Part shown: in pieces, positions 26,129-39,276 of the stretch | How the letters are laid out: each line of letters begins with the position of its first letter | Position numbering within the stretch: the first letter of the stretch is position 1 | DNA from: Oscillatoriales cyanobacterium | GTDB taxonomy: Bacteria > Cyanobacteriota > Cyanobacteriia > CACIAM-69d | DNA: 64,000 nt | Direction of reading: 5' to 3' | Assembly (NCBI GenBank): GCA_004292515.1 | Contig: RDXB01000041.1 | Coordinates: forward strand, 1-64,000 | Program-made: the position numbers and the translations under genes | Notes under the pieces: model-generated | What the model was told of the DNA's origin: nothing | Database searches by the model: none | What the model saw: only the letters and a program-made list of their open reading frames with translations

Positions 26129-26253
26129 TTATACCAGCAGGACTCATACCAGCTTCGATTACCACTGCTACAAATTCTGCCCTAAAACCCTTGTCAGGCA
26201 AGGAGCTTGAGTAGCGTCAATTCACGAAATTAATTCACAAAATTGGTATTACA
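26129..26253 (+). repeat. Dispersed element with AATACCAATTT ends, copy 2
   Basis: TTATACCAG...TTCGATTACCACTGCTACAA...CTTGTCAGGCAAGGAGCTTGA...CACAAAATTGGTATTACA. It matches 53409-53503 and, reversed, 1351-1446, with small insertions at both ends. It fills the gap between two convergent genes and supplies the TAA stop codon (26249-26251) of the minus-strand gene. Confidence 0.8.
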
Positions 26254-27517
26254 TCAGCCGATCGCCTCCCCCGATCGCCTCCCCAACACCATCCAAGATC
26301 GCCGATCGGGTGGCCAAGGCTCGCTCTAGGTGGGGACGCAACCAGTCGGGTAAGCGCTGGTGAATATCTTCCCAAGCCGCCCGGTTCAGGGCCTGGATCG
26401 GAAAGGCCAACGCCACGATCGTCACCTGAATCGAGGCCTCGGGTTCCGGCAGTCCGCTGCAATATTTCACAAAATCTTGCAGAAACTCCCAATCAGTTGG
26501 GGAAATTCGTCGCTGAGGAAAGTTGCTGGCTATTAACCGCTGATAGAACTGCCCAAGCGAACTGTGCCAAGTGGATTCGAGATCGGCTGCGGCCGTGTTG
26601 TACCACCGCTGGCAATATTGGGCGCGGGCACTGCTCAGTTCATTCAAGGCACTGGGGTGACCGGGCGATCGCTGGCAGAGGTCTAGACAGTCCTGCATCC
26701 AATGTAACCAAAAACCGTCCCATTGAGGAACGCCGGGTTCACCGAGGTTGCGAGGTGGAAACGCCGGGGCGATCGCGCCAACCGCCGTGCGTTTTCGCAA
26801 AAAGCCATTGATACACCAAGTGACATTCCGCTCGTAAAAATCGCAGTAGTGGGTGTCAATTTCGTACTCGTCCCCGCAGACCGCTAGGAATTCCGCCAAG
26901 GCCTGCAATGGTTTCCCGGCGCTGAGGCTGTCTTCTACAATCAGGTAATCGCCGCGATCGAGCCAGGGATGGAAAAATTCCAACACCGCGATCGTTGTGC
27001 CATAGGAATGATCCGCGTCTTCAATGATCAACCAAGGGCGGGGCAAGCTGGCCAGCCAGTCTGCCGAAAGCGTCGCCCCCAGGTTGCGCCCATCCCCTTC
27101 GAGGAACGTGACGCGCGGGTGGCTGACCTCCGTGACCCGGTTAATATCGATCGAGTAGATTTGGCCATCAATCCCAAAGTTATTCAGTTGGTCGCCCAGC
27201 CACAGGGCACTGCCCCCCGCAAAGGAGCCAATCTCAAAAATCGTGCGCGGCTTTAGTTCCCACAGCAGCAGGGAATAGAGCGCCCAGTCAAAGGGATTTT
27301 TGATCGTTTGGATGCCGCGATAGCTGTACTGGCGGGCGGCCATTTCCAGTGCCATCGCATCGGTGTTGCTCAGGAAGCTGGTATCCACGGGCCGCACCGC
27401 ATCCCACAGGCGATCGCGCCAATGGCAGAACCGATCTTCGGCCTGGGCTTCAGCGGACTCCGTGGTGATGGCCACAGGCTGCTCGGTTGGCAAATCAGGG
27501 CTGCGCTCACCAACCAC
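26249..27517 (-). CDS. CmcI-like methyltransferase with C-terminal accessory domain
   Basis: 422 residues. Residues 45-250 are a CmcI/cephalosporin-hydroxylase-family domain, a SAM-dependent O-methyltransferase fold: GIQTIKNPFDWALY, the SAM motif IFEIGSFAGGSALWLG at 93-108, YSIDIN at 121-126 and IIEDADHSYGTT at 164-175. Residues about 268-402 are a divergent copy of the accessory domain found twice in the neighbour 27559-30543: ARAQYCQRW, SSLGQFYQRLIASNFP and RLPDWLRPHLE align to it. It is the last gene of the minus-strand glycan operon, 41 bp behind its neighbour. The methyl acceptor is probably a glycan sugar (inferred). Its stop codon lies inside a dispersed repeat. Confidence 0.8.
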   Translation of the reverse strand: MVGERSPDLPTEQPVAITTESAEAQAEDRFCHWRDRLWDAVRPVDTSFLSNTDAMALEMAARQYSYRGIQTIKNPFDWALYSLLLWELKPRTIFEIGSFAGGSALWLGDQLNNFGIDGQIYSIDINRVTEVSHPRVTFLEGDGRNLGATLSADWLASLPRPWLIIEDADHSYGTTIAVLEFFHPWLDRGDYLIVEDSLSAGKPLQALAEFLAVCGDEYEIDTHYCDFYERNVTWCINGFLRKRTAVGAIAPAFPPRNLGEPGVPQWDGFWLHWMQDCLDLCQRSPGHPSALNELSSARAQYCQRWYNTAAADLESTWHSSLGQFYQRLIASNFPQRRISPTDWEFLQDFVKYCSGLPEPEASIQVTIVALAFPIQALNRAAWEDIHQRLPDWLRPHLERALATRSAILDGVGEAIGGGDRLM

Positions 27518-27558
27518 CAGGCGATCGGCCCCTGGGGCATCGTCAGGATCGTCAGCCC

Positions 27559-30543
27559 CTAAGACAGCATTTTTTTTTCAGCCGATTCAAACACCGCCTG
27601 ATAGACCGGCAACAACCAAGCAGGCAACCGCGTTGCTGCGTCCTTCACTTGCATCTTGTCTGGCGGGTAATACATCATCGCGCCCAACAAGGCATTCAGA
27701 CCACCCGGCTGCTCTAGACCCGCCGCCACTCGTTGGGCCAAGGACACTAAATAATCCCGCTCAGTAGCCTCCAGCGGTTCCCGTTGGAACCCGGACTTCA
27801 AGAAGCTGGTATAGCGCCGCCCCAACTCGCTGTGGAATAGGGTTTCCAGTTGATGCGCCGGAATCGTCAGCCAAAAATCCGCCACCTGTCGCCGCAGTTG
27901 CCGCAACTCGGCGATCGTTTCCGGTTCTTCGGGGTCGATTTCATACAGGTTCGAGCAACCCAGGAATCGATTCAGAAACACCATATCCTCGGCCAAGTTG
28001 GGCTGTAGCGATGCGGGTGGGGCGATCGGCTGGGGTGGGGTGATCGGGGTTGGCGGCTCGATCGGCTGGGGCGACTCGATCGGCTGGGGTGGGGTAATGG
28101 GCTGAGGCGGGGCAATCGGTCGGGGCGGGGTGATGGCAGCGATCGGGGTCGGTGCGACAGGAGGCGGTGGCAGTGGTGAGCCTGCCGTTAGGGGTTTACG
28201 TCCAGCGGCAATGGTCGAGCAGGACTCCTGTTGGACTAATTGATGCTTGGCAACCTCGTCCCAGGCTTGGTCAACACCGACCCAACCGCATTGAGTGTCA
28301 TGGAATAGCATCCAGCCGCCAGGTTTGATCCAGGGGAAGGACTTTTGAAAATCCACCACCACATCTTCGTATTGATGCGATCCGTCAATGAAGATTAAGT
28401 CGATCGGTTTGCCTCCCGTCAGGGCTTGCCACTCGCTGAGAACTGGGCCTGAATAGCCTCGCAGGGGCACGACATAATTGAGCAAGCCATGTCGTTGTAC
28501 GTTGTCTTGCCAAATTTGGAAAAAGTCTCGATCGGCAAAGTCCGAATCGTTGCCATCCCAAGTGTCAATGCAGTAAATTTTGCGCTGCGTTCCCACACAA
28601 GCGAAGGCCATGGCCACGGTAGAACGGCCGCGAAAAGAGCCGATTTCGACGATCGTGGCATCCTGGGGCAGCGATCGCACTTTCTCAAAGAGATATTGCT
28701 CTTGACCCGGTACTAACCAGCCCTCAACGGATTCAACCGCAGCGGCAATTTCTGCGTAGGAACTGGGGGCAACTGGGGTGGTCGCTGTTCGCACGGGTGT
28801 AGCGATCGGTGCGATCGGTGCGATCGGTGGTGGCGGCAGGGGGGTAGACGATTGGGCTGGCGCAGCATTGCTCGGTGGCATACTAGCTGCGATCGCCGGA
28901 GTGGTACCAAAGATGGTCTGGTAATCGGTGAATAACCATTGGGGCAATCGGTTCGCTGCATCACGGACTTGCATCTGTCCTGGCGCGTAGTACAGCATCG
29001 ATCCAATAAACGCCTTCAATCCGTTGGGGTCTTGGAACCCTAGGCGAGCTTGTTGACTCAGTTGATCGCGTTGTTGCTGTTCCTCGGGATTCAGGGGTTC
29101 CTGAAGAAAGCCACTTTGCAAAAATTGGCGATGGGTATGACCGGCTTCGCTGGTGTAGAGGGGCTGTAGGTCTGGGGCAGGGGCGGTCTGCCAAAATTGA
29201 GCGAGCTGTTGTCGCATCTCTCGCAGTTGGACGATCGTGCTGGTATCTGTAGGGTTGAGGCGATAGAGATTGATGCAGCCGATCGCACGCTGAAATAACC
29301 AGTTCATATAACTCAGGGACGTGGGGTTACTTAAGGAGTCGGGGGCTTGGTGCGATCGCATGATTGCGTCCCGCAGGGATAAAAGTTCATCGAATTTTAC
29401 CGCCAACCGATCCGTTGATCGCTCGATGTCAAAAACCTGCATGGCCCGCGCCTGCCCAGCCGCTGCCATCTGGCCCCAGCGTTCTCGGTTGGCTGGCAAA
29501 CTCGCCAGGGCCTCAGCGAGGGCTGCGCCATCATTCGGGGGGACTCGCAAGCCACTGACCCCCGCTTCAATGGCCTCCGCTGATCCGCCAACCCCAGTGG
29601 TGATCAGGGTAGCCCCAGCAGCCATGGCTTCTACCTGGGTAATGCCAAAGGCTTCGACTTCGATCGAGGGAAACACCAGCACGTTGTGGCGGCGATGAAA
29701 CTGAATCAGTTGCTGACGGTTTAATTGACCAACGAAGCGTACCCGATCCGCCAAGCCTACCTGCTGAAGATAGCGCTGCAAATCGGCAAAGTAATCGGGA
29801 TAGAGGGGCTTGCCGGCGATCGAACAGTCAAAGGCAATCCCCTGAGCGGCCAACCGAGCCAAGGCTTCCAGCAAGACGTGGGGCCCTTTGGTCGGAATCA
29901 CCAACCCGGCATAGCCAATTCGGAGTCTGTCATGGGGCGGTAACGTCGGCTGATAAAACTGGTGAACAAACGCCCCTGGATAGATGGTTTGGCTATGGGC
30001 AACTGGGTAGCCTTCCTTCAGCAAACAGTCCCGCACATAGTCACTGGCTACAGCCAAGTGATACAGCGGGTGTGGTGGCATTTCTTGGGGAGCGTGGCTG
30101 GCCACGGCAAAGCCCAAATGATGCACCACGGGGATTTGAGCCTCTAGTAGTGGCCCCACCACCGTCATTCCCAGAAAGGAAATGTTGCCCAAGAGGCAAA
30201 CATCCGGCCGATAGTCAGCGATCGCCGCTCGAATTAAGCGATCGTTGTGAGCCATCACCATTTGGATCTGCTGCCAATCCTCAAAGGCGCGGGTTGAGCC
30301 TTCGTAGGTTCCCCAAAGTTGCAAGCGGCGATCGATATTGGGTTCTGGCTGCGCGATCGGCCCCAAATAATCCGCCTGGGCTGTCAGCACCCGCACATCA
30401 TGCCCTCGCCGCACTAGGCAATCAGCAAAGTCCGCGATCGACCGGCCATACCCACCAAGTTCCTGGGGCGGATAGAGGTTGTTGATTGTTAGAATGCGCC
30501 AGGGGCGATCGCGATGTTGCAGCATGATTCCAGGTAATCTCAC
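27559..30543 (-). CDS. GT4 glycosyltransferase - methyltransferase fusion with duplicated accessory domain
   Basis: 994 residues. Layout: GT4 glycosyltransferase (15-395; ILTINNLYPPQELGGYGRS, YAGLVIPTKGPHVLLEAL, PSIEVEAFGITQVEAMAAG); accessory domain R1 (413-545); Pro-rich linker (546-595); class I methyltransferase (600-780; IVEIGSFRGRSTVAMAF, IDLIFIDGSHQYEDV); a Pro-Ile-rich linker (788-845; PPQPI units); accessory domain R2 (855-986). R1 and R2 are clearly homologous (GCxNLY, FLxSGFxxEPL, MQVxDAAxRLPxWL), by eye 40-50% identical. I know no name for this domain. The start is a GTG at 30543, with an ATG six codons later as alternative. A cytoplasmic enzyme that adds and methylates sugars of an exported glycan is the best reading. 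Confidence 0.85.
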   Translation of the reverse strand: MRLPGIMLQHRDRPWRILTINNLYPPQELGGYGRSIADFADCLVRRGHDVRVLTAQADYLGPIAQPEPNIDRRLQLWGTYEGSTRAFEDWQQIQMVMAHNDRLIRAAIADYRPDVCLLGNISFLGMTVVGPLLEAQIPVVHHLGFAVASHAPQEMPPHPLYHLAVASDYVRDCLLKEGYPVAHSQTIYPGAFVHQFYQPTLPPHDRLRIGYAGLVIPTKGPHVLLEALARLAAQGIAFDCSIAGKPLYPDYFADLQRYLQQVGLADRVRFVGQLNRQQLIQFHRRHNVLVFPSIEVEAFGITQVEAMAAGATLITTGVGGSAEAIEAGVSGLRVPPNDGAALAEALASLPANRERWGQMAAAGQARAMQVFDIERSTDRLAVKFDELLSLRDAIMRSHQAPDSLSNPTSLSYMNWLFQRAIGCINLYRLNPTDTSTIVQLREMRQQLAQFWQTAPAPDLQPLYTSEAGHTHRQFLQSGFLQEPLNPEEQQQRDQLSQQARLGFQDPNGLKAFIGSMLYYAPGQMQVRDAANRLPQWLFTDYQTIFGTTPAIAASMPPSNAAPAQSSTPLPPPPIAPIAPIATPVRTATTPVAPSSYAEIAAAVESVEGWLVPGQEQYLFEKVRSLPQDATIVEIGSFRGRSTVAMAFACVGTQRKIYCIDTWDGNDSDFADRDFFQIWQDNVQRHGLLNYVVPLRGYSGPVLSEWQALTGGKPIDLIFIDGSHQYEDVVVDFQKSFPWIKPGGWMLFHDTQCGWVGVDQAWDEVAKHQLVQQESCSTIAAGRKPLTAGSPLPPPPVAPTPIAAITPPRPIAPPQPITPPQPIESPQPIEPPTPITPPQPIAPPASLQPNLAEDMVFLNRFLGCSNLYEIDPEEPETIAELRQLRRQVADFWLTIPAHQLETLFHSELGRRYTSFLKSGFQREPLEATERDYLVSLAQRVAAGLEQPGGLNALLGAMMYYPPDKMQVKDAATRLPAWLLPVYQAVFESAEKKMLS

Positions 30544-30784: not shown

Positions 30785-31483
30785 TTACAGCACAAACGCT
30801 TGGGAGTTAGGTGCAGATTGGGATTGTCCATAAGCCGCCGGAGTGAGTTTCCTCAGAAACCCATTCACCAAACAGGTCATGTTGTAGCCATAGAAATCAC
30901 AATAATCGCTGTCAATTTCGTAGTCTGTTTGATGTTGCACCCAGAATTCTTGGATGGCTTTCACAACGCCTCCATGACTCAGACCATCTTCAACTAGCAA
31001 GTAATCACCCGCATCCAGGTAGGGATGGAAGAACTTCATGATGGCTGCTGTACTGGCGTAGCTGTGGTCAGCATCATCAATCACCAACCAAGGGCGCGGG
31101 AGCGATCGCAAGCCAGCATCATGGAATGTTGCTTCCAGTTGTTGAGCATTACCCCCCAGAAAAGTGACGCGCGGGTGCTGAATCCAAGTCACAGGATTGA
31201 GATCCACGGAGTACACATGACCATCGATACCATAGGTATTTAATAAATCGCCCATCCAAGCAGCACTGCCACCCGAAAAAGACCCAATTTCCAAAATTGT
31301 CCTAGGTTTCAGATTCCATAACAGGAGGTGGTAGAGCGCAAAATCAAATGGGTTTTTAATCAGGGGAACACCACGATAGGTATACATCTGACAGGATAGA
31401 TTCATAGCTACCATCAATTGGGTAGGCATGATCGTATTCATCGATAACTCGGTGGTATTCCAAGTTCGTTGATTCATTTTCAT
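30785..31483 (-). CDS. CmcI-like methyltransferase
   Basis: 232 residues, start supported by AGGAG seven bases upstream of the ATG. A close paralogue of the N-terminal domain encoded at 26249-27517: YRGVPLIKNPFDFALYHLLL, SAM motif ILEIGSFSGGSAAWMG, YSVDLN, VIDDADHSYAST and the cysteine-containing end DYCDFYGYNMTCLVNGFLRK. It lacks the accessory domain. Probably a sugar O-methyltransferase in the glycan operon. The 241 bp downstream, before the next gene, contain degenerate CCTAGAC/TCTAGACC repeats and no gene. Confidence 0.82.
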   Translation of the reverse strand: MKMNQRTWNTTELSMNTIMPTQLMVAMNLSCQMYTYRGVPLIKNPFDFALYHLLLWNLKPRTILEIGSFSGGSAAWMGDLLNTYGIDGHVYSVDLNPVTWIQHPRVTFLGGNAQQLEATFHDAGLRSLPRPWLVIDDADHSYASTAAIMKFFHPYLDAGDYLLVEDGLSHGGVVKAIQEFWVQHQTDYEIDSDYCDFYGYNMTCLVNGFLRKLTPAAYGQSQSAPNSQAFVL

Positions 31484-31641: not shown

Positions 31642-33486
31642 TCAGAACTGCACAAAATCCATCACCGGACAGAATGACGAAATAGGCTGACCCCTAAAGA
31701 CAACAGCTAATAGGTCTGCCAATCGATGGTGATAGGTATGGTGGCGATAGAGGGTTTCAATCGCCTTACGCATGTAGGGATAACGACGCTCAGGGTATTG
31801 TACAAAGTATTCGATCGCTTCTAGATATTCACGCGGGTTGTCTGCCATCACCAACTCATCGGGCCCCAAGAAATCGCGAATCCGTCGAGCGCGATCGCTC
31901 ACCACAAACCCCCCGCAGGCCGGTGCATTGAACACACGCTCATTGCAGGTAAACCCTTCCACTTCAAAGGCATGATGTAAGTTTAGGGCGATCGTAGAAG
32001 AAGAGTATAGATAGGGAGCTTGTTGGTTAAACTCCTGGGTGCTCAAAACTGAGTTGTGGGTATTGCTGAAGGGAGATTGAGTCCAGTCAGGGCCAATTAG
32101 TAGCTGACTAAAACGCTTAAGCGGTTCTGCCCAAAACTGCTTAATGCGAGACCCTTTTTCCGAGAAAGTTCCCACAAAGAGCAAGTCTCGCTCGGCCCGC
32201 GCAAAAGTTGGTGTGTGGCAGGTCAAGTTAACACCCCAGGGAAAGCTCATCACAGGAATTCCTAGCTCCAGCATGTAGGGACGGAGTAGGTAGGCATTCC
32301 CTTCGAGGGACAGCTCAGAAATGGCTAAATCAATGCGGGATGCGTATTGCTTCAGGGCAACTTTTTCGGCATCACACATATTAGCTACATACAGATCAGT
32401 GCTGGGTGCTTCATCAATATAACGACCAAAGATTACTAATTTAGTATTGGGATTTTGGGGCGATCGCAGTAGGGGTTCAATATAGGATAAACGCTCAGGA
32501 TTGGAGACAATTAACAATAAGTTAGGGTAAGTCTGCCGCAGGGATTCGATCGCTTCCTCTTGACCATGTTGCAGGCAGACGAATGGAATTTTCCAGTCCT
32601 GGGCCGCTTGAGCTAGCCCCAATAAACGGACAGTGGCTGCGTAGGGAGTCGCACCGTAATAGCAAATTGCATGGGGCTGCGATCGCCAAGTCCGTAGCTC
32701 AGAAATATCTTGTAAAGCCTGTTCAAGCCGAGGTAAGTCAGCAATTTGAAACCGGTCTTGTGTGATTGTCTGAATCGATTGTTGGTTAGCTGGTGACGAT
32801 GGTGATTGGGCAATCGCCCCATATCCCGTTACAGTTTGGGGTTGTAGGCAGTCATAACTAACGATCGCACTTTGCAGATCAGAATAGCCTTCTAGTTGCC
32901 AGGCAAGGGGAGGCGAAAAACTATAGAAATTGAATGATGGTTGCAAATCAGCAATTAGGAAATCTGGAGCTGCGGAGAAGGTGCTTTTTTCGGAATGCTG
33001 GAGGATTTTTTGAACTTGATGGGCGAGGTATTGCTGAACGGAAACTAGGGATTTTTGATGCACCGAATAGGCATGGAGGGCATAGGTACGGCGCGTTTTT
33101 AGTAAATTAGCTGTAATCGGTTGGGGTGGCTCAATATGGTTACCACCCATCAGACAAACATCCCAATCTAGGGGCAATTGTCGCCAGTAATGGTCAAAGA
33201 ATTCTCCTAGTCGATCATGGAATACCACATCGTCTTCTAGAATCAAAACCCGCTCGGCTGCAGTGGCGATCGCCTGCTCCAAAACTTTTAGATGACTCAG
33301 GGTGCAAGACAGCTCCGCATTATACATAGCATCAAAAGGAAGCTGAATCTGTTTGGCATCAACGGCCGAGAATCGAGTGACTTGCTCAATGCCATGTTTG
33401 CTAAATTCCTGTTGACAATGCTCCCAGCGATCGGGCCGGCGATCGAGGTTAATACAATAGATCTGGTCAAAGTAGTGGTGGAGCAT
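31642..33486 (-). CDS. Two-domain glycosyltransferase (GT25-like plus CgeB-like)
   Basis: 614 residues from the ATG at 33486; a longer frame reaches 33537 without support. Residues 1-215 are a GT25 (LPS-type galactosyltransferase) domain: FDQIYCINLDRRPDRWEHC, AELSCTLSHLKVLEQA and VLILEDDVVFHD, where EDD is the metal-binding part. Residues about 240-600 resemble CgeB/glycosyltransferase family 1 proteins: FVCLQHGQEEAIESLRQ, LLFVGTFSEKGSRIKQF, NLHHAFEVEGFTCNERVFNAPACGG. Two different transferases on one chain suggest consecutive sugar additions. Middle gene of the minus-strand operon, 133 bp behind its upstream neighbour. Confidence 0.82.
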   Translation of the reverse strand: MLHHYFDQIYCINLDRRPDRWEHCQQEFSKHGIEQVTRFSAVDAKQIQLPFDAMYNAELSCTLSHLKVLEQAIATAAERVLILEDDVVFHDRLGEFFDHYWRQLPLDWDVCLMGGNHIEPPQPITANLLKTRRTYALHAYSVHQKSLVSVQQYLAHQVQKILQHSEKSTFSAAPDFLIADLQPSFNFYSFSPPLAWQLEGYSDLQSAIVSYDCLQPQTVTGYGAIAQSPSSPANQQSIQTITQDRFQIADLPRLEQALQDISELRTWRSQPHAICYYGATPYAATVRLLGLAQAAQDWKIPFVCLQHGQEEAIESLRQTYPNLLLIVSNPERLSYIEPLLRSPQNPNTKLVIFGRYIDEAPSTDLYVANMCDAEKVALKQYASRIDLAISELSLEGNAYLLRPYMLELGIPVMSFPWGVNLTCHTPTFARAERDLLFVGTFSEKGSRIKQFWAEPLKRFSQLLIGPDWTQSPFSNTHNSVLSTQEFNQQAPYLYSSSTIALNLHHAFEVEGFTCNERVFNAPACGGFVVSDRARRIRDFLGPDELVMADNPREYLEAIEYFVQYPERRYPYMRKAIETLYRHHTYHHRLADLLAVVFRGQPISSFCPVMDFVQF

Positions 33487-33619
33487 AGCCAAGGGTCTCA
33501 GCACAGATGGCGCATTAGGAGCAAGGCACGAGAACAAGTGATCAATTCAGTCACACAGTTGAGCTATGGAATCGCTCAATGTTGGATTGATTTAAAACAT
33601 CAGAAGTTGTTGACGAGGT

Positions 33620-36391
33620 TCAACAATCAACGGCTAGGGACTGAAGCGCCTTCGCTAGATCATCCAAGTGAATCACCAAATCTTCTAGGTCGTTGAATAG
33701 ATACTCTGGCTCGGCTTGAGTTACGGTGGTTCCATATTCAGTAACTGACCGAGAAATTAGATACTGATGGATTAGTTGACACTGACTGGCCAAGGCCCAA
33801 TAGTAGGGTTGGCTATAGTTTTTGGGAAAGATCTCGAGGACTTTAGTGCCTGGTTGGCAAAAGACCAAATTAGTCAGCCCTGCTCCGTGGGGAGCCACAA
33901 CTACTGCAGCCTCCGACAACAGTGCTGCTTGCTCACGCACCGATAGTTCACTGAGGGTGACACCCACAAAGCCAGATTTTTGAAGCCACTCAATTACCTC
34001 AGGCTCATTCAAAACTCGACGATAATTTGCCTCAGCCCGAGTTAGATAAATCCGTTTCGTAGGTGTAGCCCGTTGAGGCTGAGCAGCATCTAAGAATAAG
34101 TCCCGCAGCAGTTGACAGGTATCCCGATCAAAAATCGGCCAATGGGAAAATAGAGAAGGCACGACTAAACGATCGGCCTTGAGATGAATACCGGTTGTAT
34201 TGCGAATTAATTTATGGGCTGGTAACCCAAGTGCTTGCAGGGTTTCCTGCTGGAATTTAGACTGGGCTGGGTCAATCAAAATGCCATCTAATCCATCCCA
34301 TTGGGGATAGACAGATTTCAGCAGCCCGGCCCGAGCTACAAACTCAAACATCCAGTGGCAATAATTCCCAGAATATCGAATGGGCAGGACGGCTAGAGTT
34401 CCGGCAAAAGGCTGAACAGGCGGTAGGTAGTTGGATGAGGCAACCAGCAGTGAGTTGCCATAGGATAAGTCTTCAATGACCTCACGGTTACTCGAAAACA
34501 CAGCCGTTGTTCGAGGATCAGACCACACTTGACCCTGTTCGATGGTTGCCAAACTTTTAGGAGCATAAGACCAAGCGCCACCAATCATATATTGATGATC
34601 GCTGGGGGTGATGCTGATAGCAGGTGACCAATAGACTTGGTGGGCAGCGGCTAAATCTTGATAGGTTGTTCCGGTGGGGTTTTTGTGGCGAAATACCACC
34701 TGAGCATCGGTGCTATCGGGAACAAATTCGGTGATCAATCGATAGGGAATTGTCCCTACGAAACAGCTAATCGCATCATGTTTGCGATCGAGTTTTTCGA
34801 GGGATTCGCGCAACACATTCAGCAGGGGTTCAAACCCAGGTTGATGATGCAAAACTTTGAGGCTAAGCGTGATTGCCTGCGCATATTGCCCTTGGCCTAA
34901 TAGACCATTCACCACCCCATGACACACCATCCCAGCGCTGGGATGGTGCAAGTTACGTCGCAACAGTTCTAATGCGTAGGGTAAGGCTAGATGGGCTAAC
35001 CCTTGGTTGCAAAGTGCCACCAGATCGTAGTCTACGGTCGGCGCATCCCACACAGCTTGTAGAACCACAGTATGGTGTTGAATTGCTTCAGCCCAGTGAC
35101 CTTGCGATCGCAGGATATGACCTAAATTCCAGTGGGCAGGATAACAGCTTGTATCCCGAGCAATCGCCTGCTGATAAGAATGAATGGCAGCGGGAATCTG
35201 GCCGGCTTCCTGATACAGCGCACCCAGCCAATGGCAAGAGTCCCCGGACTGTGGATCGAGGGCGATCGCCTGTCGGTATGCCACCTCGGCTTGGGCAAAA
35301 TGCCCGCCCCAAATTTGATAAACATAGCCCAGTTGCTGATAGGCCGCCGCCCAATTGGGTCTCAGGGCGATCGCCTGTTCACAGTAGGCGATCGCTTCAC
35401 TTGGGCAACCTTTAGCCGCAAAAATCTTAGCAAGCTCGAGTGCATTCTCCGGTTCTAAACACTTTGGTGCTTGGGGCGATCGGAACTGGGTCGGTTGCGA
35501 TTGTGGAGCTTGTAATTGTGAAACCGATGGAGATAAGATGCCTAGGGATGAAATGTTTTCTGGGATTGGCGGTTGGCTTGCCGATTGACCGTCGCGCAAT
35601 CGAAAATACTGTGAATCCACATGGATCTTAGGATTCAAGCAATTTTCAAAGGATTGCCAATCGAGTCGTTGACCTGCCACAAAATATTGATAAAGCTGCT
35701 CGATCGTAGTGGACTGTGATCGGTCGAATTCATTCTGAATATAAACATCTTGAACTTGGTTGATCTGTAAGGTAATGCTCTTGCTGACCTCGAAACAAGC
35801 TAACTGTTTCCGCCAAGTTCGACCATGGGTTTCAAAGTAATAAGTCGCCAGCAACCCCTCCAGTAAATTTGGATTCTTGAGGTTGTCCGTCAGGCTCAAT
35901 ACCTGTACCACATCGCCTTTGCGGTAAATCGAGGCACTCACCTCCCAGGGGTAAGTCCAATCCGTATTGACTAAGGGCGAGATCGTCCAGTCCCAAATCC
36001 AGTAACTTTCTTGAGCCTGTAGTGGTTGAGTGGGTTGGATATTTTTACCCAATCTCAGGCTAAACGCCAGCAATTGCTCATGATGTGCCAAGGCTTGAAC
36101 ACAGATCTGGGGATCGAATGGAGACTTGAAAAAGACATCATCACATCCCCACAGAATGTAATCATCACAGGCAGTGACGATCGCCATTAGATCCTGATAA
36201 AAATCCTGTTCGGCAATCCAGTTAACCCTCGGAAAAGCTTGCTGAAGGGTACTGTAGGGTGTGCTTGGCACATCACGATAGAGCACATAAATAGATCGCT
36301 CCGGCAACCCAGAATAGTGCAATAAGCTTTCGATATAGGCAAAGAGTTGCAGCGGCCGTTCTTTGGAAAAAATAATAGTCGAAATCATCAT
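33620..36391 (-). CDS. GT2-like - TPR - GT61 glycosyltransferase fusion
   Basis: 923 residues. Residues 1-250 are a GT-A-like domain (STIIFSKERPLQLFAYIESL; YILWGCDDVFF with the acidic pair). After a Gln/Ser-rich linker come TPR repeats (about 315-560; AIAYCEQAIALRPNWAAAYQQ, AEVAYRQAIALDPQSGDSCH, AIHSYQQAIARD). Residues about 590-920 are a GT61 (DUF563) domain: YSGNYCHWMFEFVARAGLL, RIYLTRAEANYRRVLNEPEV, VVAPHGAGLTNLVFC and KVLEIFP. GT61 enzymes usually transfer pentoses or GlcNAc. Its start overlaps the stop of the upstream gene by four bases (ATGA), so both are translated together. Confidence 0.85.
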   Translation of the reverse strand: MMISTIIFSKERPLQLFAYIESLLHYSGLPERSIYVLYRDVPSTPYSTLQQAFPRVNWIAEQDFYQDLMAIVTACDDYILWGCDDVFFKSPFDPQICVQALAHHEQLLAFSLRLGKNIQPTQPLQAQESYWIWDWTISPLVNTDWTYPWEVSASIYRKGDVVQVLSLTDNLKNPNLLEGLLATYYFETHGRTWRKQLACFEVSKSITLQINQVQDVYIQNEFDRSQSTTIEQLYQYFVAGQRLDWQSFENCLNPKIHVDSQYFRLRDGQSASQPPIPENISSLGILSPSVSQLQAPQSQPTQFRSPQAPKCLEPENALELAKIFAAKGCPSEAIAYCEQAIALRPNWAAAYQQLGYVYQIWGGHFAQAEVAYRQAIALDPQSGDSCHWLGALYQEAGQIPAAIHSYQQAIARDTSCYPAHWNLGHILRSQGHWAEAIQHHTVVLQAVWDAPTVDYDLVALCNQGLAHLALPYALELLRRNLHHPSAGMVCHGVVNGLLGQGQYAQAITLSLKVLHHQPGFEPLLNVLRESLEKLDRKHDAISCFVGTIPYRLITEFVPDSTDAQVVFRHKNPTGTTYQDLAAAHQVYWSPAISITPSDHQYMIGGAWSYAPKSLATIEQGQVWSDPRTTAVFSSNREVIEDLSYGNSLLVASSNYLPPVQPFAGTLAVLPIRYSGNYCHWMFEFVARAGLLKSVYPQWDGLDGILIDPAQSKFQQETLQALGLPAHKLIRNTTGIHLKADRLVVPSLFSHWPIFDRDTCQLLRDLFLDAAQPQRATPTKRIYLTRAEANYRRVLNEPEVIEWLQKSGFVGVTLSELSVREQAALLSEAAVVVAPHGAGLTNLVFCQPGTKVLEIFPKNYSQPYYWALASQCQLIHQYLISRSVTEYGTTVTQAEPEYLFNDLEDLVIHLDDLAKALQSLAVDC

Positions 36392-39138
36392 GAATTAACT
36401 GAAAGGGACTGACTAGGAATCGGGGCAGATTTGGCATAAATATCCCCCCAAAGCAATGGATCGACTTCGGCAGCCGCCTCCAGTTGATGTAACAAAGTTT
36501 GGTGATCAACCCAATCAGTAAAGGCAAATTTTGCTCGGCTATTACGTGAGAAATTAAACTGTCGGTAGCCCAACTGATCGAGTCTGTCGAGGCATTGTTG
36601 GGTACTGGTTAGTAACTCAAAAGCAAACTCGAAACAGATTGCAGGAATAGCTTGGGATAGCCCCATCAAAACTTCAAACTCAAACCCTTCAACATCAATT
36701 TTGCAAAACTCAGGAATCCCATAATGGGCAATTGCCTGATCCAGCGTAATGGTTTCCACGGTGACTTGACGATCCCACTGGTACTCGCCCGCAAAGCGCC
36801 CTTGCTGCCAAGCTTGGGAAAATGTTGAAATGGTCGTGGCTTGACTGCAAATATTAAGTTGTAACTGCCCTGCGGTTTGGGCAACGCCGCGATTAACCAC
36901 GGCGACTTGCGGCAACTCCACATACTTCTCCTGCAACAGGGCTACCAGGTCGGGGTTTGGCTCAAAGCAAACCACACGCGCTCCTAAAGCGAGGTAGAGG
37001 TCAGCTTTTTGCCCTAGGTTTGTGCCAACGTCAAATACTAAGCTATTGGAACCAATAAACTGACTGAGAAATCCCTGTTGTTGTGCAATGTCATCCTCAG
37101 CTGGAACATCCCAGTTCATCTGGATGGGAGCATTGGGTTCCACGGATGCAACCGTAAGCTGGGATGTTGCAGGTGTTGTCAATTGGGTAAGTCCAGGCTT
37201 TTGTAAGTGGGCAACCCAAACCACGAATCCACCCACTGGAATTTGACTGAGAACTTCTGATCCCATCGGTTCTGGGGTCAGATGGACTTCATCCAATACT
37301 TGATAGCCAGGGAAGTAGTTGAGGAGTTGTGCTTTGGAGAAAATGCGGTGGGCGTTGAAGGCAATGCAGGGTGGGCCGACCGGAACGCTAATGAGCAATG
37401 AGCCGCCGGGGGTCAGGATGCGATCAATCTCTGCACAGGCTTTGCGCGTTCCATCCGGCAAAATTGGGTCACCGTAACGACCTAGTCCAATATGTTCAAC
37501 GACACAAAGGGAGCTGACAAATTCCTGAGATTGATCGGCAAAGGGCAAGTTGAGGATACTGCCTGCAACCACTTCAAACCCGGGAATCTTGAGGTTGGGA
37601 GGCCTAATGTCAACAAACTTGGTTGGGACAATTTGTGAAACAATTCCTGCATAGAGAACCGTTGAGCCAATATCAACCAGCGACTTAGGACGGTGTTCAA
37701 AGATTTTGCGAGCTGCCCAAGTATCCTGATAAAAATAGTAAGGGTCGATCGGGGTGGTGGGAACGTTATCCTCTAAGCAGGGATAAAAGGTAAATTGTGG
37801 AAACTCCCCAGGTTCAGAGGATTGCTGATAAGCGGCAACGTAAGTTTTAAATTCTTGTTGGTAGCGTTCCCAACCCGCTCCTTGGGCAATATCGGGACGG
37901 CTGGCAGCTAGTTGCTCAAGGGCGGTAATGGTTGGATTAGGAGTTGCCACGTTAGACACGATACTCGTGGCTTGATCGGAGCGAGCACCAATGGTTGTCG
38001 AAAAGGGGGAGGCTGGCGATCGCTGGGGGCGCTGTTGACTCAGCGTGACATCAGACCAGGACATGAACGGAGCAGATCCCTGACCCGCTGGGAGTATCGA
38101 CCAGATTCCTGATAATGCCCACTCAGGCGCAACAGCTAGAAAATTACACCAATGGTAGTTTTCTAAATCAGCGGTAAATTGCTCTAGCTTTAGCAGTCCA
38201 GTGGGCAAGATTTTGAAGAGTTGATAGCCCGAGTCCATCAACTGTGCAAAGGCGGTGGCGAGTTGAATTCCGGAATCGAGCCAGCAGCCACCATATTCAA
38301 ATTGAATCAGCCCTACTCGATGCGATCGCAACAGGTCAACCGCTCCTTGCAATACATCGAGTTCCCCCCCTTCCGTATCAATTTTTAGGAAGTCAATCTT
38401 AGGAATATTATGTTCTGCGCAGTATTCATCCAGGCTGATGGTTTGCACCGCAATTTCTGCGGGGGTACTCATGCCATGTTGTTGTTCAACTTCAGTGTTT
38501 CGGCGATAGAGTGATCCCCACTCAGAAGACTCGCTGTAGTGGTAAAACGTGCGCTGTTCTCGCTGTTTACCGGCGGCCAAGCATTCAATCTGGAGCTGGG
38601 CTTGGGGCGGTTTAGAAGTCCAGAGCGATCGCAGCTGTTGATGGTTCTCAGCCACAGGCTCAAACACATAGAGTTGGGCATCGGGAACCGCTTCAAAAAC
38701 GGTTTGAGTCCAGCGCCCAACTTGGGCCCCAATATCAAACACAATGGCTCCCGGTACAATCAGCTGCTCGATCGCTGATTTCTCGCCACTGACCAGCAAA
38801 TCATCGGTCACCCATGCGGGGTTGGCCAGCATTGCCGCCGTGTAGTGTTCAACGGACTGACTCAGTTGTCCTTGGGCTTTTAAGACTTCGGCCACCCGAA
38901 AATGCGCTACTTCGCTGCCGGGGTGGTGGGGATCGATTTGGATAGCACGCCAGTAGGCATCAAGAGCCTGAGGATTTTGGAGTGCCGCTAGGATATTGCC
39001 TAAAAGTTGATAGCCCTGGGCGGAATTAGGCTGTTGCTGCAAGAACGACTGACAACAACTCAGAGCTTCTGAATAGCGCCCTTCGTTGTACAGCGTCAGG
39101 GTGACGACAAGAGGGTGAGTCGCTGAGTCGGAAACCAT
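36388..39138 (-). CDS. TPR protein with two FkbM and one further methyltransferase domain
   Basis: 916 residues from the ATG at 39138; 20 extra codons upstream look non-coding. Layout: TPRs (about 10-110; NEGRYSEALSCCQSFLQQQ); FkbM methyltransferase 1 (about 120-335; IVFDIGAQVGRWTQTVFEAV, LYVFEPVAENHQQL, PKIDFLKIDTEGGELDVLQG); a Ser/Thr-rich linker; a class I methyltransferase-like domain (about 440-660; LVDIGSTVLYAGIVSQIV, FADQSQEFVSSLCVVEHIG); FkbM domain 2 (about 690-890; LVFDVGTNLGQKADLYLALG, FCKIDVEGFEFEVLMGL). FkbM proteins O-methylate sugars or polyketides. This is probably the first gene of the six-gene minus-strand operon and is divergent from 39277. Confidence 0.85.
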   Translation of the reverse strand: MVSDSATHPLVVTLTLYNEGRYSEALSCCQSFLQQQPNSAQGYQLLGNILAALQNPQALDAYWRAIQIDPHHPGSEVAHFRVAEVLKAQGQLSQSVEHYTAAMLANPAWVTDDLLVSGEKSAIEQLIVPGAIVFDIGAQVGRWTQTVFEAVPDAQLYVFEPVAENHQQLRSLWTSKPPQAQLQIECLAAGKQREQRTFYHYSESSEWGSLYRRNTEVEQQHGMSTPAEIAVQTISLDEYCAEHNIPKIDFLKIDTEGGELDVLQGAVDLLRSHRVGLIQFEYGGCWLDSGIQLATAFAQLMDSGYQLFKILPTGLLKLEQFTADLENYHWCNFLAVAPEWALSGIWSILPAGQGSAPFMSWSDVTLSQQRPQRSPASPFSTTIGARSDQATSIVSNVATPNPTITALEQLAASRPDIAQGAGWERYQQEFKTYVAAYQQSSEPGEFPQFTFYPCLEDNVPTTPIDPYYFYQDTWAARKIFEHRPKSLVDIGSTVLYAGIVSQIVPTKFVDIRPPNLKIPGFEVVAGSILNLPFADQSQEFVSSLCVVEHIGLGRYGDPILPDGTRKACAEIDRILTPGGSLLISVPVGPPCIAFNAHRIFSKAQLLNYFPGYQVLDEVHLTPEPMGSEVLSQIPVGGFVVWVAHLQKPGLTQLTTPATSQLTVASVEPNAPIQMNWDVPAEDDIAQQQGFLSQFIGSNSLVFDVGTNLGQKADLYLALGARVVCFEPNPDLVALLQEKYVELPQVAVVNRGVAQTAGQLQLNICSQATTISTFSQAWQQGRFAGEYQWDRQVTVETITLDQAIAHYGIPEFCKIDVEGFEFEVLMGLSQAIPAICFEFAFELLTSTQQCLDRLDQLGYRQFNFSRNSRAKFAFTDWVDHQTLLHQLEAAAEVDPLLWGDIYAKSAPIPSQSLSVNS

Positions 39139-39276
39139 GCAGCCAGGGGTGGGGTTAAGATACTCGATGCCGCCAACGTATCGAAGGGGGCGGCGCAATC
39201 GCCCCTCATCTTAGACTGTTGATGACCCGTTTTAGCGATTCAGAGCGATTAGACAGTAGCAAGGCGATCGGCTTTC

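Follow-up and report, generated by a model that had tools for sequence, protein, structure and literature searches.

A repeated helical domain in cyanobacterial glycan enzymes and its possible role in the glycosylation of RTX surface proteins

Introduction

Protein glycosyltransferases of the GT41 family carry, in front of the catalytic domain, the region to which the acceptor protein binds: TPRs in OGT and SPY, and the all-alpha domain (AAD) in HMW1C enzymes. HMW1C-like N-glycosyltransferases (NGTs), such as ApNGT and AaNGT, comprise about 620 amino acids in total, with a helical domain N-terminal to GT41. This N-terminal domain touches the acceptor peptide, and an Arg177/Asp215 dyad recognizes the sequon Thr (PMC10507012). 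These enzymes glycosylate, in the cytoplasm, a surface protein that is exported; this is the model for the mechanism proposed below, although the secretion route differs: HMW1C systems use two-partner secretion, whereas the secretion partner here is of the type I/RTX kind.

Cyanobacteria have abundant RTX surface proteins, among them SwmA, associated with swimming in Synechococcus, and oscillin, associated with the gliding of filaments. Both are glycosylated RTX proteins of the cell surface and have a link to movement (PMC3034196). The domain described here is undescribed as part of these systems in the papers found. It was encountered in a stretch of 64,000 nucleotides from an Oscillatoriales cyanobacterium, called the window below. 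The two domain-bearing proteins of the window carry GT4 and methyltransferase domains, unlike the GT41 enzymes OGT and SPY; the main carrier of the domain in the family as a whole, however, has a catalytic domain like that of OGT/SPINDLY-type GT41.

Domain Architecture of the Window Proteins

The two proteins and the glycan cluster to which they belong are arranged as follows.

26249..27517, (-), 422-aa protein: CmcI-like methyltransferase, then a divergent domain copy (open frame, Pfam)
26309..26728, (-), divergent copy 3 behind the CmcI-like domain of the 422-aa protein, residues about 261-403 (Smith-Waterman, profile)
27559..30543, (-), 994-aa protein: GT4, domain, Pro-rich linker, Methyltransf_24, Pro-rich linker, domain (open frame, Pfam)
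27583..28005, (-), domain copy 2, residues 847-987 of the 994-aa protein, after the methyltransferase domain (profile envelope)
28006..28251, (-), proline-rich linker, residues 765-846 of the 994-aa protein, with PPQPI(A/T) repeats (sequence)
28294..28650, (-), Methyltransf_24 domain, residues 632-750 of the 994-aa protein (PF13578, 2.3e-24)
28903..29328, (-), domain copy 1, residues 406-547 of the 994-aa protein, after GT4 (profile, 6e-72)
29374..30543, (-), GT4 glycosyltransferase domain, residues 1-390 of the 994-aa protein (PF00534, 1.4e-29)
30785..31483, (-), domain-free CmcI-like methyltransferase, encoded upstream within this cluster (PF04989, 2.5e-18)
31642..39198, (-), remaining genes of the glycan cluster, without domain copies (Pfam, locus reading)

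The initial annotation had reported a domain that occurs twice in the 994-aa protein, at residues with which the profile envelopes agree, and a third, divergent copy at the end of the 422-aa protein. Copies 1 and 2 are 43% identical, with a Smith-Waterman score of 329 against a maximum of 63 in 1000 shuffles, and the third copy is also borne out: it scores 104 with copy 1 and 126 with copy 2, where the maxima of 1000 shuffles are 59 and 51. A 29-sequence profile, among whose members are window copies 1 and 2 (two sequences) and copy 3 (one), re-finds all three (1.1e-56, 4.3e-51 and, for copy 3, 1.2e-39). Every motif listed at the outset is present in both copies of the 994-aa protein, namely GCINLY/GCSNLY, an FW pair in each, SEAG/SELG, FLQSGFLQEPL/FLKSGFQREPL, MLYY/MMYY and MQVRDAANRLPQWLFTDYQ/MQVKDAATRLPAWLLPVYQ.

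The catalytic assignments are likewise upheld by Pfam (PF00534 for GT4, Methyltransf_24 and RMNT_CmcI), the CmcI match covering residues 62-206 of the 422-aa protein (1.5e-16; 61.2 bits against a cut-off of 23.2). The same order of CmcI-like methyltransferase and domain recurs in two genomes of the same genus (G001 and G002). Over the repeat regions of both window proteins Pfam finds nothing significant, and it detects no GT41 domain in either.

The region 31642..39198 encodes a protein with GT25 and Glyco_trans_1_2, a TPR-GT61 protein and a TPR-FkbM-DUF268-FkbM protein. In the last, a single chain of 936 aa at 36388-39198, TPR is combined with an FkbM methyltransferase domain, DUF268 and another FkbM domain, and the 923-aa product of 33620-36391 consists of an N-terminal region, TPRs and the GT61 domain. 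The window contains neither a type I secretion gene nor an RTX gene; the genome has both, at other places.

Distribution, Novelty and Predicted Fold

The repeat is a compact accessory domain of about 130-140 residues, predicted to be all helical, and constitutes a new family. AlphaFold2 folds a single copy (window copy 2) into eight helices with a mean pLDDT of 96.9, and a Foldseek search of the PDB with this model gives no fold match (best E 2.1). The domain had been called unnamed, and it has no significant match in Pfam or NCBIfam, only chance matches among PDB sequences when its profile is used, and none by fold in the PDB. No paper naming the domain was found in the open-licence literature. 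The family is real and, so far as testable, undescribed.

Membership in EAD2 (PF19956), another small helical adaptor domain, was considered and rejected. Only three of 29 members give a match (best E 0.056), the best reaching 20.2 bits against a cut-off of 23.8 and window copy 2 reaching 14.1 bits, although these weak matches recur at one place.

With the three-copy profile, matches occur in 12 genomes (that of the window among them) out of 59 related ones, and the 29-sequence profile finds members in 41 of 386 genomes (22 of 142 genera) in a phylum-wide search. A scan of one genome per species across bacteria and archaea, sensitive to fairly close relatives only, yields 44 loci, all cyanobacterial, in Limnothrix, Microcoleus, Trichodesmium, Okeania, Planktothrix, Tychonema, Phormidium, Geitlerinema and other genera. 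Searches of phages and viral contigs give no matches, and a search of plasmids gives a single one, in an Acaryochloris record. Judged by these sequence searches, the family appears so far to be confined to cyanobacteria. The loci read contain 219 domain copies in 89 proteins. Among copies with identities down to about 21-25%, Arg 884 (numbering of the 994-aa protein) is invariant and Pro 974 and Trp 976 are nearly so; Trp/Tyr positions are also conserved.

The Domain in Front of GT41

The commonest setting of the domain is directly before GT41, as seen in 55 proteins. The spacing to the conserved GT41 part is usually 15 residues (14-16 in 52 of the 55), and the two together are conserved as a unit of about 615-635 aa. 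In filamentous genera the unit often has one to four more copies behind it and FkbM, GT2 or other domains in front, in chains of up to 2,777 aa. The domain also occurs in tandem arrays of 2-5 copies and, through Pro-rich linkers, fused to GT4, GT2, and CmcI-like and Methyltransf_24 methyltransferases. The statement in the initial annotation that each copy follows a catalytic domain is thus correct within the window but not for the family, given the 55 copies before GT41 and the existence in picocyanobacteria of domain proteins without any catalytic domain.

The GT41 part of these relatives matches PF13844 in Pfam and SPINDLY among PDB sequences (profile E 1e-44). An AlphaFold2 model of the domain-GT41 unit (pLDDT 90.2, pTM 0.90) has its best Foldseek matches in SPY, OGT and XcOGT, with E 7e-26 to SPY, and retrieves only ordinary glycosyltransferases from a viral structure library. 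However, OGT and SPY carry TPRs before the catalytic domain, whereas the new domain stands there in these proteins and Pfam detects no significant TPRs in the domain region of those scanned. The helices after the domain contain an invariant Arg (R205 of L042, a domain-GT41 protein of 618 aa), in a region with no reliable alignment to NGT.

Two plasmid-borne proteins are related to this unit. On a plasmid of Azospirillum sp. B510 (L189:8659-13422), a proteobacterial protein shares the GT41 unit at 36%, including the helices between the domain and the catalytic part, with no detectable copy of the domain. On the Acaryochloris plasmid pMB01 (L188:13801-19488), a protein annotated as TIGR03032 carries the domain together with two GT41 stretches; it adjoins the gene for a 2,860-aa FG-GAP repeat protein.

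Free Two-Domain Proteins and Type I Secretion

One family of small genomes (f2; 1.9-3.3 Mb where the domain is present), here taken to be marine and freshwater picocyanobacteria, encodes proteins of about 300-380 aa that consist of two copies of the domain alone. The exceptions are a fragmented locus (L147) and overlong frames at L141-L143, probably a matter of start-codon choice. All 13 loci of this family recovered from the 386 genomes with the 29-sequence profile have a type I secretion ABC gene 3.1-14.9 kb away. With one to four full-length type I secretion ABC genes per genome, the chance of such proximity is 0.005-0.026 per locus. The joint chance is ~1e-9 over five genera alone, taking the largest value for each; a product over all 13 loci would overstate the significance because the genomes are related. 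The ABC protein matches TIGR01846 HlyB, below the curated cut-off of that model.

The loci differ in their other neighbours. In four of them (type A, L135-L138) the free protein is accompanied by an RTX gene and two GT41 genes, and in three of the four also by GT4; in L147 an RTX gene adjoins the free domain protein. In type B (L139-L146) the free protein lies near PpiC, a cNMP-ABC transporter and HlyD. PpiC-ABC-HlyD are near neighbours in eight of the 13 loci and an RTX gene lies nearby in the other five, RTX proximity by itself being weak since RTX genes are too numerous in cyanobacteria to be evidence alone. The likeness to the SwmA and oscillin systems thus consists in type I genes near all 13 free proteins and RTX genes near five. 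The RTX repeat proteins encoded near the free two-domain genes are related to one another (L135:10780-13524, L136:10449-12695, L138:10781-13084 and L147:9446-13900) and are candidate SwmA-like surface proteins.

Two filamentous loci, L149 and L153, have PpiC-ABC-HlyD within about 3 kb of the domain locus, although they are selected cases, noticed because of this proximity. In L153, HlyD-ABC-PpiC adjoins a GT2-domain protein, and a 664-aa RTX gene is found 3 kb beyond. The flanks read of most filamentous fusion loci contain no secretion or RTX genes. Since this is also true of the window, it can only be inferred that the window's proteins belong with RTX export.

Evolution of the Window Copies

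In a tree of 89 reduced copies, in which the type A free proteins of picocyanobacteria are represented by copy 2 (copy 1 being short and filtered), all 32 pre-GT41 copies fall in one clade (support 0.92-0.95), which also takes in three GT2-linked copies and a few from tandem arrays. A second clade (0.926) unites the GT4-linked copies, both copies of the 994-aa protein included, with copy 2 of the type A free protein. Copy 1 of the 994-aa protein groups with the first copies of relatives' proteins in which GT4 is followed by three domain copies. The window GT4 is 58-61% identical to that of relatives' GT4-domain fusions, mostly of this kind. Copy 2, by contrast with its position in the chain, shares 73-74% identity with the third copy in the same-genus genomes G001 and G002, so that a middle copy has probably been lost from the 994-aa protein. 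Its Methyltransf_24 domain occupies the position of the relatives' middle copy and shares 57-58% identity with methyltransferases that are joined to the repeated domain, or lie beside it, at L067 and L148. On these sequence comparisons, Methyltransf_24 probably took the place of the middle copy within the tandem array.

In L135-L137, the separately encoded GT4 in the neighbourhood of the free protein is 34-37% identical to the window GT4 over 364-392 aa (E 1e-58 to 1e-79), whereas for the remaining GT4 genes of the loci the match is limited to the C-terminal half of the window GT4. Gene pairs that are separate in one lineage and fused in another are a classical sign of functional coupling, and the separation of GT4 and domain in picocyanobacteria, with their fusion in the window lineage, is such a sign.

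Proposed Function and Alternatives

The domain may bind a protein, which would be the polypeptide that is modified or else a copy in a shared partner. Bound domains would gather glycosyltransferases and methyltransferases on one surface protein of the RTX kind, similar to SwmA or oscillin, and glycosylation in the cytoplasm would precede type I export. The fused GT4, GT2, CmcI-like and Methyltransf_24 enzymes could act on one product. From the pre-GT41 setting, or in parallel with it, the domain would have spread to tandem, linker-fused and free forms. That the domain docks to protein, and in this way serves the glycosylation of RTX surface proteins in the cytoplasm ahead of their export by the type I route, is a proposal on which the balance is about even. 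The glycosylation of SwmA and oscillin and the contact of the HMW1C-like N-terminal domain with the acceptor peptide are precedents that agree with it but are no proof. Docking to a shared partner had been suggested in the initial annotation, and the genomic context of the free proteins, near type I secretion genes throughout and near RTX genes in five cases, speaks for it, with the binding itself putative.

A more specific form of the proposal, which is tentative and on the improbable side, makes the free two-domain protein the scaffold of a glycosylation complex coupled to type I secretion. The scaffold would hold the RTX/S-layer polypeptide, GT4, GT41 and methyltransferases together in the cytoplasm, the glycosylated protein would be handed to PpiC-ABC-HlyD, and in filamentous cyanobacteria the scaffold would have been fused into the enzymes.

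The main rival, which overlaps with docking, is homotypic assembly: domain copies and the free protein would bind each other and so build a glycan-synthesis complex, leaving the acceptor untouched. Arrays of 2-5 copies, Pro-rich tethers, the presence of the domain on several enzymes per cluster and the free two-copy form are all as expected of a multimerisation module. However, multimerisation alone leaves both the proximity to type I secretion and RTX genes and the fixed place before GT41 unexplained, and we regard it as possible but on the improbable side. The acceptor could also be a lipid-linked or capsular glycan instead of a protein, as is usual for many GT4/FkbM clusters.

It is unlikely that the domain is a divergent AAD of HMW1C-like NGTs, and hence known in kind. 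The AAD also precedes GT41, is all helical and has a similar length (HMW1C_N, 146 positions), and the domain-GT41 unit and HMW1C each have about 620 aa. Yet in profile-profile comparison (hhalign) against cyanobacterial HMW1C-like enzymes (L154, L159-L161) and PDB sequences, the domain aligns with the AAD at E 0.49 and the N-terminal 232 residues at E 0.1, while the GT41 parts nonetheless align with HMW1C-like enzymes at 1e-27. No NGT occurs among the 50 PDB matches listed for the domain model, nor among those of the full unit; PF18071 (HMW1C_N) is absent from the Pfam matches of domain-bearing proteins; and cyanobacteria separately own HMW1C-like enzymes in which no domain copy is detectable. 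With no detectable homology between the helical domains, and a GT41 part nearer to OGT/SPY, homology to the AAD was rejected on the profile tests and the AAD is retained as an analogy only.

The cyanobacterial HMW1C-like proteins used in this comparison, L154:55-1854 (-), L159, L160 and L161, have about 600 aa, match HMW1C-like NGTs over most of their length and are candidate N-glycosyltransferases. L154 matches PDB entries 8P0Q and 3Q3E at E about 1e-27, with a sub-threshold match to HMW1C_N, and is encoded at a distance of about 15 kb from the gene for a domain-GT41 protein.

Docking to the growing glycan, the other suggestion of the initial annotation, found no support, and the genomic context points to a protein partner instead. 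A carbohydrate-binding module would suit the fusion to glycan-synthesis enzymes and the conserved Trp/Tyr positions, but the all-helical fold, the lack of a match to any carbohydrate-binding family and the free protein near secretion genes make it very improbable. Least credible is a structural spacer spread by duplication and without a specific partner, for although copy number and position vary, the invariant Arg 884, the near-invariant Pro 974 and Trp 976 and the retention of a free form of the domain in genomic surroundings that recur speak against it.

Significance

The domain offers a diagnostic mark for candidate RTX-glycosylating enzymes, and the small free protein near export genes in picocyanobacteria provides a handle on the process. 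If the proposed docking role is true, the domain would join TPRs and the AAD as a new type of N-terminal domain in GT41 protein glycosyltransferases.
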